DNA from: Paenibacillus sp. FSL K6-1330
GTDB lineage: Bacteria > Bacillota > Bacilli > Paenibacillales > Paenibacillaceae
Assembly: GCF_037976825.1 (NCBI RefSeq)
Contig: NZ_CP150269.1
Coordinates: forward strand, 2,059,501-2,123,500
Length of the DNA stretch: 64,000 bases
Direction: 5' to 3'
The notes under the pieces were generated by a model. The model was not told where the DNA came from. It saw only the letters and a program-made list of their open reading frames with translations, and ran no database searches. Position numbers and translations under genes: made by a program. Positions 26,189-35,114 of the stretch are shown here, piece by piece (position 1 is the stretch's first letter; each line of letters starts with the position of its first letter).

Positions 26189-26455
26189 ATGGAATGGAAA
26201 ATGATTTTTGAACTTATTGATCCGCGGCTACTAATCGTTGTGGCTGCATGCTGGGTTATTGGCTGGGTTCTGAAGAGAACCCCTAAAGTTCCGGATTGGA
26301 GCATCGTATACATTGTGATAATCGTTGCTGTCTGGTTGACGATCGGTCTGCTTGGATGGTCGGTTGAAGCGATTATTCAGGGAATCCTTGCAGGGTCCTT
26401 TGCTGTATTTGGACACCAGGCAATCAAACAAACGAAAGAAGGGATTAAGTTATGA
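26189..26455 (+). CDS. Phage holin
   Basis: The 88-residue protein has three hydrophobic segments (about 13-28, 38-60 and 62-78) and a basic C-terminus (KQTKEGIKL), a common holin layout. It overlaps the amidase gene by 4 bp (ATGA), so the two are translated together. ATG 26189 follows GAGAGGTTG. Holins make the membrane permeable so the amidase reaches the wall. The exact holin family is not assigned. Confidence 0.8.
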   Translation: MEWKMIFELIDPRLLIVVAACWVIGWVLKRTPKVPDWSIVYIVIIVAVWLTIGLLGWSVEAIIQGILAGSFAVFGHQAIKQTKEGIKL

Positions 26456-27177
26456 GGAAGGTATGGATTGATGCTGGTCATGGCGGGAAGGACCCGGGAG
26501 CTGTTGGTAATGGCCTTAAGGAAAAGGATATTGTCTTAGCGGTATCCCTCGGAGTGAAGAAGAAGCTGGAAAGTGATTACGAGGGAGTACAGGTGGAACT
26601 CTCTCGATCAACGGATGTATTTCTTGAGCTCAAAGAGCGGACGGATGCGGCCAACAAAGCCGTGGCGGATCTGCTGGTTTCCATACACTGTAACGCAGGC
26701 GGTGGCGCTGGTGGGTTTGAATCCTTCAGGTATACCAATGCTTCAGCTGCCTCACGGTCCCTACAAAATGTGCTGCATTCCGAGATCATGATTGCACTTA
26801 AGCCGTATAATGTGAGAGATCGTGGACAGAAGGCTGCGAACCTGCACATGTGCCGTGAATCTAAGATGCCGGCAGTTTTGACCGAAAACCTGTTTATCGA
26901 TGTGGCGAATGATGCAGTGAAGCTTAAACGGCAGGATGTTATTGATGCATTGATTGCCGGTCATGTCGCGGGGATCGCGAAATATCTGGGACTCAAGAAA
27001 AAGGAGGGTAAACCTATGAGTAATCCAAACCGCGATATTAATGTGGCAAGCCCTTGGGCAGTATCTGCGTGGGAAGCAGCGACAAAGCTAGGATACTTTG
27101 ATGGAACACGCCCTGGTTCACCCATTACACGTGAAGAATTGGCTATTGTCATAATGCGAATGGAAAACAAGAAGTAA
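26452..27177 (+). CDS. N-acetylmuramoyl-L-alanine amidase (endolysin)
   Basis: This zinc-dependent amidase cleaves the bond between MurNAc and L-alanine. The 241-residue protein has an amidase_3 domain at 1-180: the zinc ligands are H10 (DAGHGGKDPG), E24 and H79 (SIHCNAGG), and E145 is the catalytic glutamate. A C-terminal segment at about 196-238 (AWEAATKLGYFDG, ITREELAIVI) resembles a single SLH-type repeat and may anchor the enzyme to the cell wall. No signal peptide is present, so export needs the holin. It is the last gene of the late operon before a terminator. Confidence 0.92.
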   Translation: MRKVWIDAGHGGKDPGAVGNGLKEKDIVLAVSLGVKKKLESDYEGVQVELSRSTDVFLELKERTDAANKAVADLLVSIHCNAGGGAGGFESFRYTNASAASRSLQNVLHSEIMIALKPYNVRDRGQKAANLHMCRESKMPAVLTENLFIDVANDAVKLKRQDVIDALIAGHVAGIAKYLGLKKKEGKPMSNPNRDINVASPWAVSAWEAATKLGYFDGTRPGSPITREELAIVIMRMENKK

Positions 27178-27390: not shown

Positions 27391-29091
27391 TTGAAATCAT
27401 TTATTAAAAAAGGATTTAATTTACTATTAGCTTCAGGGTTAATCGCATCAGTGTTACTGCAAGCAGAAGTTACAAACGCGTCATCAGTTCCATTTACTCA
27501 GGGGGCAGGATATCAGCAAGGAGCTTATGATACAGAAGCTATGCAACCAGTAGGTTATAATTGGGATCACAACTCACGATATGCTGGAGTTACAAAAAAT
27601 CCATTTGTTAAGTGGACATATCAAACTAAAGGAGTAAATCCATTACCTTTAGTAATTGATAGAGATGGAACAGTAATTACAACAAGTCGCAATGTTTCGG
27701 CTGATACCAGTGAAATATATGCTATAAATTCAGATGGGAGCTTGAAGTGGAAGACATTAATGGGTGGACAAAGTTTGTATACTTCACCAGTAATAAGTGC
27801 TGATAAAAATCTTATAATGCAGGATAATTATTCTCTCATAAACATTAATAGTGACAATGGAACAAAGATGTCATTTAGTGACAGTTTTATAAATAAGATA
27901 AATTATTTCTACGAACCAGTTATTGATAGAGAAGGAACAGTGTACACAGCTGGCGTTGGACCAACTAGTGCTTTGATTGCTTTCAAACCTGACGGAAAAG
28001 TAAAATGGTCAACGGGAAATTCTAGTTATTATAAAAGTGATATGGTTCTATCTAAAGAAGGAAAATTGTACTTCAAATATAGTGGGAAAGGTTACAATTT
28101 ATTAACCGCCTATAATTCAGTGAACGGCAACAAATTATGGGACTATGGTATAGAGGTCTATGGTAGTAATGGTATTGGAACTGTACCTGCTATTGGAAGC
28201 GATGGAACAATATACATTGTTGATGCATCGGGATATATACATGCAATAAATCCTGATGGTAGTGTTAAATGGAAAAAAGAATTACCAAATAGCTTAAATA
28301 AAAATGTTGCTGACCCTATAGTCGGAAGAAACGGTTCAATTTATGTGCCTCACCCTGATAAAAACCTATACGCTTATGATTCTTTCGGAAATCCAAAGTG
28401 GGTTTTTAAAACCACTAGTAAAGTATCCACTCCTCTAATTGATAAAAATAATAATATATATTTTGTTGAGGGCAAGAATGTAAAAGCAATAAACTCGGAT
28501 GGTCAAGAGATATGGTCATACACATTGGATTGGTATGATAATGCTCATGGATATAGTGTAGCAATAGCCTCAGATGGAACAATCTATGTTGAAGATAATC
28601 AAGGGAAATTATATGCAATTGGTGGTGATGTTGAAGTAAGTACTCCAACCAACCCAGAAGAGGGACAACACGGATTACGCGCTGAGTATTTCAACAATGA
28701 TGACTTAACAGATAAAAAGGTAGATCGAATAGATTCCAATATAGATTTTGATTGGGACTTAGGTTCTCCAGATCCATTAATCGATCCAGAAACGTTTTCA
28801 GTACGATGGACAGGAAAGATTCAATCAGAACGTACAGGTACTCATAACTTTCATATTTATTCAGATGATGGAGCCAGATTGTGGATCAACAATAAGTTGA
28901 TAATTGATCATTGGGTTCCCCAAGGTGATGGAGAGTTAACAGGCCAAATTTGGTTAGAGGCCGGTGAAAAATACGACTTTAAAATGGAGTATTTTAACGG
29001 AGCGACTTATGGGCGTGCTCAGCTTTCATGGTCCGATAGTGATTTTTTGTTTAAGGAAGTAATATCATCTAAAGCTTTCTATTTGAATTAA
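27391..29091 (+). CDS. Secreted PQQ-like beta-propeller protein with PA14 domain
   Basis: The 566-residue protein has a signal peptide (about 1-31, ending VTNASS). About 380 residues of PQQ-type propeller repeats follow, each with a DG-x-W turn such as AINSDGSLKWK, AFKPDGKVKWS and AINPDGSVKWK. A PA14 domain lies at about 430-560 (GLRAEYFNNDDLTD, SVRWTGKI, YSDDGARLWINN). PA14 domains bind sugars or other surface partners. Start TTG 27391 is set by AAAGGAGATA. No catalytic residues of a dehydrogenase are evident, so it likely binds rather than oxidises. It is AT-rich cargo with its own promoter, probably expressed by the lysogen. Confidence 0.88.
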   Translation: MKSFIKKGFNLLLASGLIASVLLQAEVTNASSVPFTQGAGYQQGAYDTEAMQPVGYNWDHNSRYAGVTKNPFVKWTYQTKGVNPLPLVIDRDGTVITTSRNVSADTSEIYAINSDGSLKWKTLMGGQSLYTSPVISADKNLIMQDNYSLININSDNGTKMSFSDSFINKINYFYEPVIDREGTVYTAGVGPTSALIAFKPDGKVKWSTGNSSYYKSDMVLSKEGKLYFKYSGKGYNLLTAYNSVNGNKLWDYGIEVYGSNGIGTVPAIGSDGTIYIVDASGYIHAINPDGSVKWKKELPNSLNKNVADPIVGRNGSIYVPHPDKNLYAYDSFGNPKWVFKTTSKVSTPLIDKNNNIYFVEGKNVKAINSDGQEIWSYTLDWYDNAHGYSVAIASDGTIYVEDNQGKLYAIGGDVEVSTPTNPEEGQHGLRAEYFNNDDLTDKKVDRIDSNIDFDWDLGSPDPLIDPETFSVRWTGKIQSERTGTHNFHIYSDDGARLWINNKLIIDHWVPQGDGELTGQIWLEAGEKYDFKMEYFNGATYGRAQLSWSDSDFLFKEVISSKAFYLN

Positions 29092-29571: not shown

Positions 29572-29605
29572 TTTGTCGAATTATAATACTAAAATATACG
29601 ACAAA
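29572..29605. promoter_or_regulatory. Inverted repeat around -10 of helicase operon (putative operator)
   Basis: TTTGTCG (29572-29578) and CGACAAA (29599-29605) are perfect inverted copies 20 nt apart. A TATAAT at 29582-29587 lies between them, and AGGGAG then leads to ATG 29617. A repressor bound here would silence the operon. The 240 bases from 29329 to 29571 hold no convincing gene, only AT-rich spacer and a weak open frame without ribosome binding site. Confidence 0.6.
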
Positions 29606-29616
29606 GGGAGTAAACA

Positions 29617-31488
29617 ATGAATTTAAATTACTTTATCGAGTCGATGCCCAATATTGATTCTAATCAAAGTTTACGAGAACCACAGGTTGATGCTTATCGT
29701 GCTGTGTATAAACATTTTGTAAACGATAAAAAGAAAGAGCACTCAATTATTGTTCTTCCAACAGGAGTTGGAAAGACAGGATTAATGGGGATTCTTCCAT
29801 TTGGCATTTCATTTGGGCGCGTTTTAATTGTGACTCCTCAACTTGTTATAAAAGATGCAGTTTTAGACTCCCTCGACCCTGAACATCCTAGGAATTTTTG
29901 GCTTGCAAGAAATATCTTTGAGAAGTATGAAGATTTGCCTTCTGTAATTGAATATGATCGTAAGACAAGCGATTGGGAGTTACAAGAAGCCAACATAGTT
30001 ATACTTAATATTCAAAAGTTACAAGAGAGATTGGATAGCTCACTTATAAATAGAGTTCCTTCTAATTTTTTTGATGTAATAATTATTGACGAAGCTCATC
30101 ATTCCACTGCTCCAACGTGGGAAACTTCAATGGAATTCTTTTCAGATGCTAAAGTCATTAAGTTAACAGGTACCCCATTTAGGACAGATGGTGAAAAAAT
30201 AGAGGGTGAATTTGTTTACAAATATCCACTAAGTAAAGCAATGGCAAAAGGGTTTGTGAAGAGTTTAGAGAGAATTCACTATATACCCGATCAAATTTTC
30301 CTAACACTCAATAAAAAGGATGATACTGTTTATTCCCTTGAACAAATTCGAGATATGAATTTAAAGGATGAGGATTGGGTGACAAAATCTATCGCCTATT
30401 CAAAGGAGTGTAGTATCAAGGTTGTAGAGGAGAGTATTAAGATTCTCGAAGAAAAAAGAAAAACTGGTATACCGCATAAGATAATTGCCGTTGCTTGCAG
30501 TATTTGGCATGCCGAGCAAATACAAGAGCTATATGAGCAGCAGGGTTTAGACGTTTCCCTAGTACATAGTAAGTTAAAAAAAGATGAATTAGCAGTAAGA
30601 TTAAAATCAATCGAAAATCATAAGGTTCAGGTTGTAATTCATGTAGCAAAACTCGGAGAAGGTTATGACCATAAATACTTATCGATAGCGGCTATATTTA
30701 GACCATTTAGATCACAACTTCCATACGAACAATTTGTTGGAAGGGTGCTAAGATCAATTGATGCTGAAGAAGTTGTTTCTCCCGAAGATAATATTGCTTG
30801 TGTGGTACATCATAAAGAATTGGGATTAGATAAGTTGTGGGAGTTCTACAAAAATGAAAAAAAGAAAAGTGACGTCATTAAGTACCTAGATCGCAGTGAA
30901 GAATCTTTTGAACGTTTAACCAAAGCTAGGGTTGAAAAGCAAACTGGAGACGTGATTGAAGATGGAATAGGAATTACTGAGAAGGATATTTTTATTGGAA
31001 CAGAACTACTAGAAGAACGAGAGAGACGTATTAATGAAGAACATCAAAAGTTAAATCAATTAAAAGAGTTACTACCTAACTTACCGGATGAAACTCTAAG
31101 ACAAATGATCCGCCGAGAAGAGGAAGGAGAACCAAGTGCTAAGATTCTTCGACCAGATAAATTCTTGTACCGGAAGAAAAGAGATTTGGATGACAGGATA
31201 AAAAAAGAAATGGTCCCTGAAATAATTTTGCAATATAATATCTCTAATGAAGGAAATGAACTGAGCAACTCGAAATTATTCACAGGGAAATATAGTTGGC
31301 TCCTCAAAAGAGTGCAAAGTAATACTGGTTTAATAGCTGCATACATTGAGAAGAGAGTAAATGATCTTGTAGGAAATCATGACCGAAATACTTGGAAACC
31401 AGAGGAGTACGACGCTGCAAAACAACATGCAGAAGATGTGTTTATTCTTATACAGAAGATACTGGATTCCGAATTGAAAAAGGAGTAG
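29617..31488 (+). CDS. SF2 DEAD/DEAH-box helicase, prophage cargo
   Basis: The 623-residue protein is a superfamily 2 ATPase of the type III restriction/DEAD group. A Q-like motif LREPQVDAY (19-27) comes first, then Walker A LPTGVGKT (47-54), DEAH (158-161), motif III TGTPFRTD (184-191), motif V (342-351) and motif VI QFVGRVLR (372-379). The last 240 residues (about 390-623) carry no recognised nuclease or methylase motif and are highly charged and helical. It has no adjacent restriction partner but is followed 5 nt later by a small acidic gene. AT-rich, unlike the structural genes, so likely acquired. A role in phage defence or superinfection exclusion is inference. Confidence 0.85.
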   Translation: MNLNYFIESMPNIDSNQSLREPQVDAYRAVYKHFVNDKKKEHSIIVLPTGVGKTGLMGILPFGISFGRVLIVTPQLVIKDAVLDSLDPEHPRNFWLARNIFEKYEDLPSVIEYDRKTSDWELQEANIVILNIQKLQERLDSSLINRVPSNFFDVIIIDEAHHSTAPTWETSMEFFSDAKVIKLTGTPFRTDGEKIEGEFVYKYPLSKAMAKGFVKSLERIHYIPDQIFLTLNKKDDTVYSLEQIRDMNLKDEDWVTKSIAYSKECSIKVVEESIKILEEKRKTGIPHKIIAVACSIWHAEQIQELYEQQGLDVSLVHSKLKKDELAVRLKSIENHKVQVVIHVAKLGEGYDHKYLSIAAIFRPFRSQLPYEQFVGRVLRSIDAEEVVSPEDNIACVVHHKELGLDKLWEFYKNEKKKSDVIKYLDRSEESFERLTKARVEKQTGDVIEDGIGITEKDIFIGTELLEERERRINEEHQKLNQLKELLPNLPDETLRQMIRREEEGEPSAKILRPDKFLYRKKRDLDDRIKKEMVPEIILQYNISNEGNELSNSKLFTGKYSWLLKRVQSNTGLIAAYIEKRVNDLVGNHDRNTWKPEEYDAAKQHAEDVFILIQKILDSELKKE

Positions 31489-31493
31489 TGAAT

Positions 31494-31817
31494 ATGAAGA
31501 GTGGAATACACTCACTGTACAATTTAGAAGAGGGGCATATAATAATGCCCTCAGAATTGATCGCTAATGCTAAACTTCCTAACTATGAGTATGTTAAGTT
31601 TCACAAGGGACTGGAAGGTTTAACTGTTGAGTGTTGCTGCTTACTAGATGATGACACCAAGGTATTGTTTAACTATTATTTCGATGAAAATGATAGGTTG
31701 CTACGTTTAATAGCTGATGATCATGAATACCAAGAAGTATTATTTGATCGATACAGTGAAGCTAAAAAGCTTAGAAGTAAGTTGTATGCTGATAAAGGTA
31801 TCTTGACGAGTAAATAA
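31494..31817 (+). CDS. Small acidic protein, operon partner of helicase
   Basis: The 107-residue acidic protein starts at ATG 31494 behind AAAGGAG, which lies within the end of the helicase gene. The short distance (5 nt) means both are translated from one mRNA. It has two cysteines in a Cys-Cys-Cys run (VECCCLL at about 42-48) and otherwise alternating beta and charged segments, with no recognised domain. It may modulate or target the helicase. Confidence 0.72.
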   Translation: MKSGIHSLYNLEEGHIIMPSELIANAKLPNYEYVKFHKGLEGLTVECCCLLDDDTKVLFNYYFDENDRLLRLIADDHEYQEVLFDRYSEAKKLRSKLYADKGILTSK

Positions 31818-31861: not shown

Positions 31862-31919
31862 CCGATGGTATCGGTAGAAATAACTCTGCAGCTTAATTGC
31901 ATGCAGGGTTATTTTTTTA
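31862..31919 (+). terminator. Double hairpin terminator after cargo operon, related to 27218-27274
   Basis: CCGAT-GGT-ATCGG (31862-31874) is followed after a short spacer by TAACTCTGCA (31881-31890) pairing with TGCAGGGTTA (31902-31911), then a T-run. The first hairpin and its spacer copy those at 27218. The same site can serve the minus-strand ligase gene that ends at 31927. Confidence 0.82.
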
Positions 31920-31926
31920 TTTCATA

Positions 31927-32775
31927 TCATCCTATGAGCTCAGTTAATACCGGCGTCCGCAACATCCCCGATTTGAACCAGTTTCTAAATTTCACCCGCC
32001 CCCTGATCGTTGGACTCAAATAAACAAATTTCTTATCCTCGCCTGTTACAAGTGATCGACTCATTGAATAGAACTCTTTCCTGGTTGCCTTTGTTACGTA
32101 TTCCACAATTCCAGCAGGCCGGAGTTCGCCTGACTCATTCTGAACCGCGGCAAGTAATCCGAATTCGTCTTTCCTGTACCCGGTTATAATCACGTCAGTA
32201 TACGACCAATTGATAACCTTCTGCCAGGCTGGTGATCGACTGCTTACATATAGACTATTCTTTCGCTTGCCGACCATCCCTTCAAGTTTTCGATTCACCA
32301 TCTGATTAAACAACGCCTCGCCCGCGCCTTCCACGAAGGGGATGACGCCAAATTGCTGATTTGGCATTTTTATGCCGGCAAGGATCTCTTTGCGCTGTAG
32401 CAGTGGCATCTTCCGAAGGTCTTGCCCTTTGTATTGCAATATGTCGAACACAACAAACGTAACTGGAGAAGCTATGGTCAGTTGCTTGATGCGCTGGTCC
32501 TTACTTGCTTTAAACCGGATCATGACTTCCTCAAAGTCCACGCCGTCGGGACCGGCACACGCTACTTCTCCATCCAGAAGGATGTCATCATCAAACGGAA
32601 CCAACAATTCGGGGTATTGTTGGGTACATTCCGTTTCGTGACGAGTATAGAGCCGTATCCGGCCGGACTGTTGGGAGAACAAGAGCCTGTGCCCGTCTAT
32701 TTTAGGCTCGAATATATAGTTTGAATGACTGAATGGGTTTTTAGCTGTTGCGAGTAACATCGGATCAATAAACAT
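31927..32775 (-). CDS. ATP-dependent DNA ligase (SPbeta LigB/YoqV type)
   Basis: The 282-residue protein seals nicks with ATP. The adenylation lysine is K25 in EPKIDGHR; other ligase motifs include LLDGEV (about 84-90), FVVFDIL (about 106-112), EGMVGKR (about 162-168) and WQKVINW (about 181-187). It lacks the DNA-binding N-terminal domain of large ligases, which is normal for phage-type LigB such as SPbeta YoqV. It is transcribed away from the LexA-box promoter region, with GTGAGGTG before its ATG. The GC content is close to the phage average, unlike the adjacent cargo. Confidence 0.88.
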   Translation of the reverse strand: MFIDPMLLATAKNPFSHSNYIFEPKIDGHRLLFSQQSGRIRLYTRHETECTQQYPELLVPFDDDILLDGEVACAGPDGVDFEEVMIRFKASKDQRIKQLTIASPVTFVVFDILQYKGQDLRKMPLLQRKEILAGIKMPNQQFGVIPFVEGAGEALFNQMVNRKLEGMVGKRKNSLYVSSRSPAWQKVINWSYTDVIITGYRKDEFGLLAAVQNESGELRPAGIVEYVTKATRKEFYSMSRSLVTGEDKKFVYLSPTIRGRVKFRNWFKSGMLRTPVLTELIG

Positions 32776-34875: not shown

Positions 34876-35100
34876 CTGATGAAGTGTTGCTATGAAAGAG
34901 TGCTTCATATATGCTTAATGATGAATATGATTGAGCCATAACTCAGATAAAAAAAATCACATAAAAAATCACAAACTCGGCGAATAGCCGTGAATGAGAA
35001 CGTTGCTTATACAAGTTTATAGATCAAAAAAATCAAAAAAACTAGGTGAATGAACATTGATGAATCTCAGCAAAACTACAAACAAGATGTTCTATATATA
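34876..35100. other. AT-rich spacer between prophage remnants and chromosome
   Basis: No gene is seen. The stretch holds several A-rich direct repeats (AAAAAATCAC and similar) and a few weak inverted repeats. The prophage boundary must lie here or just to the left, but no attachment core could be assigned. Confidence 0.5.
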
Positions 35101-35114
35101 AGGGTGAGACGGAT

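Follow-up and report, generated by a model that had tools for sequence, protein, structure and literature searches.

A mobile helicase and partner gene pair in a Paenibacillus prophage, probably an undescribed anti-phage system

Two-gene systems built around a helicase are a known kind of defence. One of them, in which a helicase is encoded beside a DUF2290 protein, inhibits T7 and also occurs in prophage hotspots of other species (PMC9122126); another is Hachiman (PMC12278908). The first of these reports (Rousset et al. 2022; both were available in part) describes as antiviral hotspots the slot between psu and int of P4-like elements, which hold differing cassettes there, and a regulator-peptidase-integrase slot in prophages of Bacillales. 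Here we describe a pair of genes carried by a prophage of Paenibacillus sp. FSL K6-1330, lying in a 64,000-nucleotide (nt) stretch of its genome (NZ_CP150269.1, positions 2,059,501 to 2,123,500 of the forward strand, hereafter the window). The first gene encodes a superfamily 2 (SF2) helicase and the second a small partner protein. An original prediction, made from the letters of the window alone, had taken the two to be a candidate defence or exclusion system. The pair is probably an undescribed anti-phage system; that it is a mobile two-gene anti-phage module, taken as a whole with the explanation that the helicase acts as a translocase without a nuclease, has in our judgement a probability of about 0.6.

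The gene pair and its two proteins

The helicase and its partner form a tight, co-inherited operon. Relatives were gathered from genome contigs (79 loci, among the best 80 of 522), viral contigs (in one search the best 80 of 550) and single genomes. These held 88 full-length helicase open reading frames (ORFs), 71 of them unique, and in 64 of the 71 the partner lay directly behind the helicase, at spacings of -97 to +55 nt as counted from mechanical ORF starts (the -97 is that of the window itself, counted from an upstream TTG). The two genes overlapped by 4 nt in 11 of these 64 pairs. The seven exceptions comprised two loci at contig ends and five misses. Of 81 other helicase-like ORFs in these loci, two had a partner nearby, and each of the two looks like a fragment of a disrupted member of the family.

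Since the wide partner profile (A3) had been built partly from ORFs picked for their adjacency to a helicase, a narrow profile (A2) was used as well, which predates the wide survey and consists of protein-search hits plus one ORF behind the helicase of locus L002. The narrow profile recovered 56 of the 64 partners; those missed were the partner of L055 and seven of a type 141 amino acids (aa) long, including four from named Enterobacterales. A separate profile was made from 12 partners of the 141-aa type, A2 alone also finding two of them, and its alignment with A2 spanned 99 columns (hhalign probability 81, E 1.2e-5). An even sample of the phylum (398 genomes) yielded the partner, again with A2, in all six carriers besides the genome of the window (E at most 4.2e-6); these carriers are not all independent, at least two of them resembling known loci (L194 like L049, L193 like L042). 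The distance matrices of helicase and partner correlated at r 0.88, against a maximum of 0.13 in 1000 permutations, a correlation partly expected from shared descent. The partial correlation of the partner was 0.56 with the helicase core and 0.31 with its C-terminal region. Binding of the partner to the C-terminal region was also considered, and is without support: co-evolution with that region was tested and not found.

The helicase belongs to the ResIII/XPB-RadD group of SF2. It matched Pfam ResIII at 86.4 bits against a cut-off of 22.5, together with SWI2_SNF2 and Helicase_C, and the complete set of SF2 motifs that had been predicted was indeed present (PTGVGKTG, DEAH, TGTP, GEGYDH and QFVGRVLR, which we take to be motifs I, II, III, V and VI). 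The residues of the ATPase motifs were mostly invariant or nearly so in an alignment of 82 sequences, that of the window included. The core (residues ~11-413) is RadD/XPB-like, the fold matches to RadD and XPB covering this part only; the C-terminal region (residues ~464-620) is predicted to be mostly helical and, as had been noted from the letters, carries no recognised family, the Pfam scan giving nothing above cut-off there. A nuclease domain was recognised in neither the helicase nor the partner.

The partner gene, predicted to be small, acidic and 5 nt behind the helicase, begins exactly 5 nt past the helicase stop codon and specifies a protein with an isoelectric point (pI) of 5.3 and a net charge of -5, predicted to fold as two helices, five strands and a last helix. 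It had been described as lacking a known family, which holds for Pfam but not for the PHROG library, where it matched family 12848 (partner residues 2-97 on profile positions 3-98 of 100, E 9.5e-22), a phage protein family annotated without function. Family members measure ~101-148 aa. Among 62 sequences L22, Y61, L69 and R86 were near-invariant, and no conserved acidic or histidine set fit for a nuclease was found. The partners are one conserved family, for which neither Pfam nor PADLOC has a dedicated model.

Distribution and genomic settings

The pair is sporadic. The helicase was found in 7 of 100 genomes of the genus (E 1e-60 or better), each time with a partner-profile match adjoining; searching with a single partner sequence had found the partner in only 3 of the 100, while the profile found it in all seven carriers. 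At the level of the phylum, 7 of 398 genomes carried the helicase (1e-80, the genome of the window included). In Escherichia coli, 168 of 5426 complete genomes matched, all on chromosomes: 128 carried one variant at 99% identity or more, 39 a second and one a third (NZ_LR883050). Overall, the pair spans Bacillota, Pseudomonadota, plasmids of Leptospira and a Tenericutes contig.

The settings in which it was found are those of mobile elements, and include both kinds of slot reported as antiviral hotspots, the P4-like satellites and the repressor-integrase prophages matching the two slots of PMC9122126 as far as the available part of that report describes them. In all six E. coli loci opened, the pair lay in a P4-like satellite between psu and a tyrosine integrase adjoining tRNA-Sec. 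The original prediction had suggested searching for the same pair in other prophages, and it was found there. In one of these (L105) the order is repressor, helicase, partner, metalloprotease (the peptidase) and integrase; the same peptidase cluster follows the helicase in L023/L098, L106, L115 and L116 (the partner itself not being recognised in L115 and L116), with clustered integrases behind the peptidase in L023/L098, L106 and L115 and, in L116, an ORF that equals them in size. An integrase adjoins the pair in L095 and L109, and a repressor-like gene lies upstream in L103. In L099, as in the window, the pair follows holin and endolysin genes. Plasmids of Priestia, Peribacillus, Lysinibacillus and Leptospira also carry it, as does a Pseudomonas plasmid on which it adjoins Tn7-like transposition genes; in all of these the partner was confirmed with the narrow profile.

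In L034 and L043 the pair stands next to type III restriction genes, which include restriction subunits of their own; in L024 its neighbour encodes a type I R-like protein. A tally of neighbours covered 143 of 145 chosen ORFs from 38 loci (one very long and one antisense ORF were dropped). Its defence-type PADLOC matches included PDC-S05 and PDC-S23 with three members each, and Drt2 and REase_I with two each (among the best 25 of 147 families), while the commonest PHROG was integrase, with six members (among the best 25 of 127); as the tally has no background rate, no enrichment is claimed.

Some individual neighbourhoods are worth recording in their own right. On a Leptospira plasmid (L185 7152-7889) a gene annotated as caspase family precedes the pair by ~90 nt in the same orientation, and could be an added effector. 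In one prophage the gene immediately before the pair (L023 8829-9941) encodes a phrog_4225 endonuclease, possibly as an accessory effector. In a viral contig (L104 9230-16907) the pair is surrounded by several serine-recombinase-like ORFs, each ~200 aa long, and on a Lysinibacillus plasmid (L184 2958-15174) it stands among genes whose annotation, and that alone, assigns them to antibiotic resistance.

The prophage and the operon signals in the window

The window contains terminase, portal, head and tail genes, followed by the holin and endolysin genes behind which, as predicted, the pair is located. The AT-rich cargo block of the prediction was likewise confirmed: the guanine-plus-cytosine fraction drops from 0.39-0.47 at 24-27 kb to 0.35-0.36 at 27-32 kb, and is 0.47-0.52 at 35-37 kb. 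An integrase gene (L182 15990-17210) lies upstream of the window. In a genome of the same species (G070), in which no helicase match was found at E 1e-60, the host flanks are adjacent with an overlap of 22 nt. This empty site places the prophage at ~2037865-2094597 of the genome (~56.7 kb), with the pair ~3.3 kb from its right end; the left counterpart of the attachment region overlaps the end of an ORF (L182 15412-15879). With structural genes, an integrase and an empty site, the pair is cargo of a prophage. The longest exact repeat between the prophage ends (17 bp, window 34951) was rejected as the attachment site because it is absent from the empty site.

Two neighbours of the pair are of separate interest. 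A 282-aa protein encoded on the opposite strand to the pair (31927-32775) matches the later part of phrog_114, a phage ATP-dependent DNA ligase family, and a relative of it also stands behind the pair in L030. Between the endolysin gene and the pair, an AT-rich gene (27391-29091) encodes a 566-aa protein of PHROG 29633 (unknown).

The features of the locus are collected in Table 1. The strong terminator expected after the operon was recovered by folding (-20.9 kcal/mol, z -7.0, none of 200 shuffles equally good); a scan for consensus terminators did not list this stem. The -10 sequence said to lie inside an operator-like inverted repeat fared differently. The repeat exists, around TATAAT at 29582-29587, but one equally long occurred in 138 of 1000 shuffles of the region upstream of the helicase, no recurring repeat was seen in the 40 of 64 upstream regions examined, the close relatives L014-L018 showed no upstream repeat of at least 6 bp, and a promoter scan listed nothing at 29572-29605. 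The operator and promoter reading was therefore dropped.

Table 1. Coordinates of the features discussed, as positions in the window
Feature	Position	Strand	Basis
Prophage holin and endolysin genes, preceding the cargo block	26189-27177	+	Family matches
7-bp inverted repeat TTTGTCG/CGACAAA	29572-29578 and 29599-29605		Not above chance
SF2 helicase ORF, 623 aa	29617-31488	+	ORF list, Pfam, alignment
Ribosome-site-like AAGGAG for the partner gene	31480-31485	+	Inside the last helicase codons
Partner ORF, 107 aa, PHROG 12848	31494-31817	+	ORF list, PHROG match
Intrinsic terminator (stem ~31876-31918, then T run)	31872-31930	+	Folding energy against shuffles
Right attachment region	35081-35102		22-nt overlap of the flanks at the empty site; 11-mer in common at 35087

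Defence, its alternatives and the known systems

A role of the pair in defence is likely. The candidate put forward by the original prediction is supported as such, though not proven, by co-occurrence in 64 of 71 relatives, by sporadic distribution and by location at antiviral hotspots; what was found is neither a loss of pairing nor a housekeeping role in most relatives. The exclusion system offered as its other option gained no specific support. How the pair would act is a more tentative matter, and we give less than even chances to a translocase lacking a nuclease. Under that mechanism, helicase and partner would form a complex in the lysogen, the helicase would load onto invading or replicating phage DNA, and its ATP-driven translocation would block or dismantle phage replication. 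The partner would not be an effector nuclease but a structural or regulatory subunit, which may gate the helicase or recruit it to its target. In its fullest form, this would be a widespread system with neither nuclease nor toxin domain, in which a small partner of unrecognised fold, possibly a DNA mimic, controls the access of a double-stranded DNA translocase to DNA, and the translocase stops phages by nothing but motor action on their replication intermediates; in all these particulars the proposal is unlikely to be right.

Several observations weigh against the defence reading. Shared descent, as said, accounts for part of the distance correlation, and a recognisable partner was missing in five divergent relatives (L056, L058, L063, L115 and L116); the small ORFs behind the helicases of L115 and L116 were considered as members of the partner family and not joined to it (hhalign probability 1.8, E 0.028). 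With hidden Markov models, a recombinase was found within -6/+5 kb in only 16 of 64 loci, a count that replaced a regular-expression search which had undercounted (6 of 64); some of these recombinases are short invertase-like ORFs, and contig ends truncate some of the loci. Among 50,697 phage records, two helicase queries gave no match at E 1e-30 and the partner none at 1e-5; 494 of these records matched the helicase of the window weakly, none covering 80% of the query. The pair lacks a model in PADLOC, whose restriction-enzyme, PbeA and DinG models the helicase matched partially (best 54.9 bits), and the partners gave only scattered matches, each to one or two of 62 members at E 2.4e-4 or weaker. 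When ten long neighbours from eight loci were scanned with PADLOC (1e-30), five matched, from three of the eight loci, and five did not, with no background rate for comparison. Position in a hotspot is itself suggestive and not proof, because only seven of the systems cloned from the P4 hotspot (18, plus P4 genes) were protective according to the available part of PMC9122126. A system from O157:H7 FRIK944 is one of those that gave no protection (PMC9122126), and it may or may not be this pair; FRIK944 was absent from the matches listed for the second E. coli variant (40 of 40) and from those listed for the first (60 of 129, in each of two listings).

Some of the same evidence can be read in other ways. 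If the unrestrained helicase were toxic and the partner its antidote, the pair would be a toxin-antitoxin or addiction module that stabilises its element, with defence perhaps a side effect through abortive infection. Tight coupling with 4-nt overlaps, carriage on plasmids and the acidity of the partner (pI below 6 in 46 of 64 pairs) would suit such a module, and the P4 slot houses the toxin-antitoxin-like gop-beta (PMC9122126, available part). Among solved structures, the partner model matched the DNA mimic Ugi best, although only at E 0.07 and a template-modelling (TM) score of 0.35. Against this, the partner is not uniformly acidic (pI above 7 in 7 of 64). Antitoxin genes usually precede toxin genes, and here the partner was downstream in the 64 pairs, a count that covered the downstream side only; we consider an addiction module rather improbable. 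The pair might instead serve the replication, recombination or lysogeny of the element that bears it, as a helicase of phage or satellite maintenance. Prophages and satellites do carry it, the PHROG that the helicase matches best is one of phage DNA helicases (phrog_16, E 3.4e-50), and in L093 it precedes packaging-like genes, judged by ORF sizes only. Such a role is quite improbable, however, for a pair that sits in changing accessory positions, occurs also on plasmids and beside Tn7-like genes, occupies a P4 slot whose cassettes differ from element to element (PMC9122126, in the part available), and lacks any match in the phage records at the threshold given above.

The matches to ResIII and SWI2_SNF2, and the restriction-modification-type genes adjoining L034, L043 and L024, might be taken to mean that the helicase is the degenerate remnant of a subunit of a type I or III restriction-modification system. 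Yet neither a methylase nor a nuclease was found among the eight window neighbours scanned, the predicted helical C-terminal region has no nuclease family, a dedicated partner is conserved instead, and the type III genes at L034 and L043 come with restriction subunits of their own; a remnant of this kind is very improbable. Equally improbable is a host DNA-repair helicase of the RadD type captured by the prophage, given a score of 56.6 bits against the curated cut-off of 720 for the RadD equivalog (NF053632), the sporadic distribution and the mobile-element context.

Turning to described systems, no name for the partner family or for its pairing with the helicase was found in Pfam, NCBIfam or PADLOC, only scattered weak matches being seen, and no published name for the pair was found in partial listings of titles and abstract openings; the supplementary tables of Rousset et al., outside this search, may list it. 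The pair is a two-gene cassette that recurs in distant bacteria, yet whose partner is modelled nowhere in the libraries searched beyond an unannotated PHROG. RadD/YejH and XPB helicases share the fold of the ATPase core with the helicase of the window, but it differs from them in its conserved partner gene, in being mobile and sporadic, and in falling far below the RadD equivalog cut-off. The helicase and DUF2290 system, as described in the available part of PMC9122126, resembles the pair in placing two genes in the psu-int slot, one for a helicase and one for a protein whose function is unknown. It differs in that PF10053 was not among the Pfam matches of 62 partners (E up to 0.01). A search for DUF2290 loci returned none of 296 genomes of the order and none of three others, and was uninformative since 14 control genomes were equally silent. 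Hachiman models were absent among the PADLOC matches of helicase and partners, likeness to HamB being judged by PADLOC models alone. Hachiman HamAB likewise joins a helicase to a smaller partner in two genes and surveys DNA, but its HamA is a DUF1837 nuclease (PMC12278908, available part), while no DUF1837 match was found in 62 partners with Pfam or PADLOC, nor any nuclease-like set of invariant residues. The pair described here would show whether the action of a helicase without an attached nuclease can serve as an immune effector.
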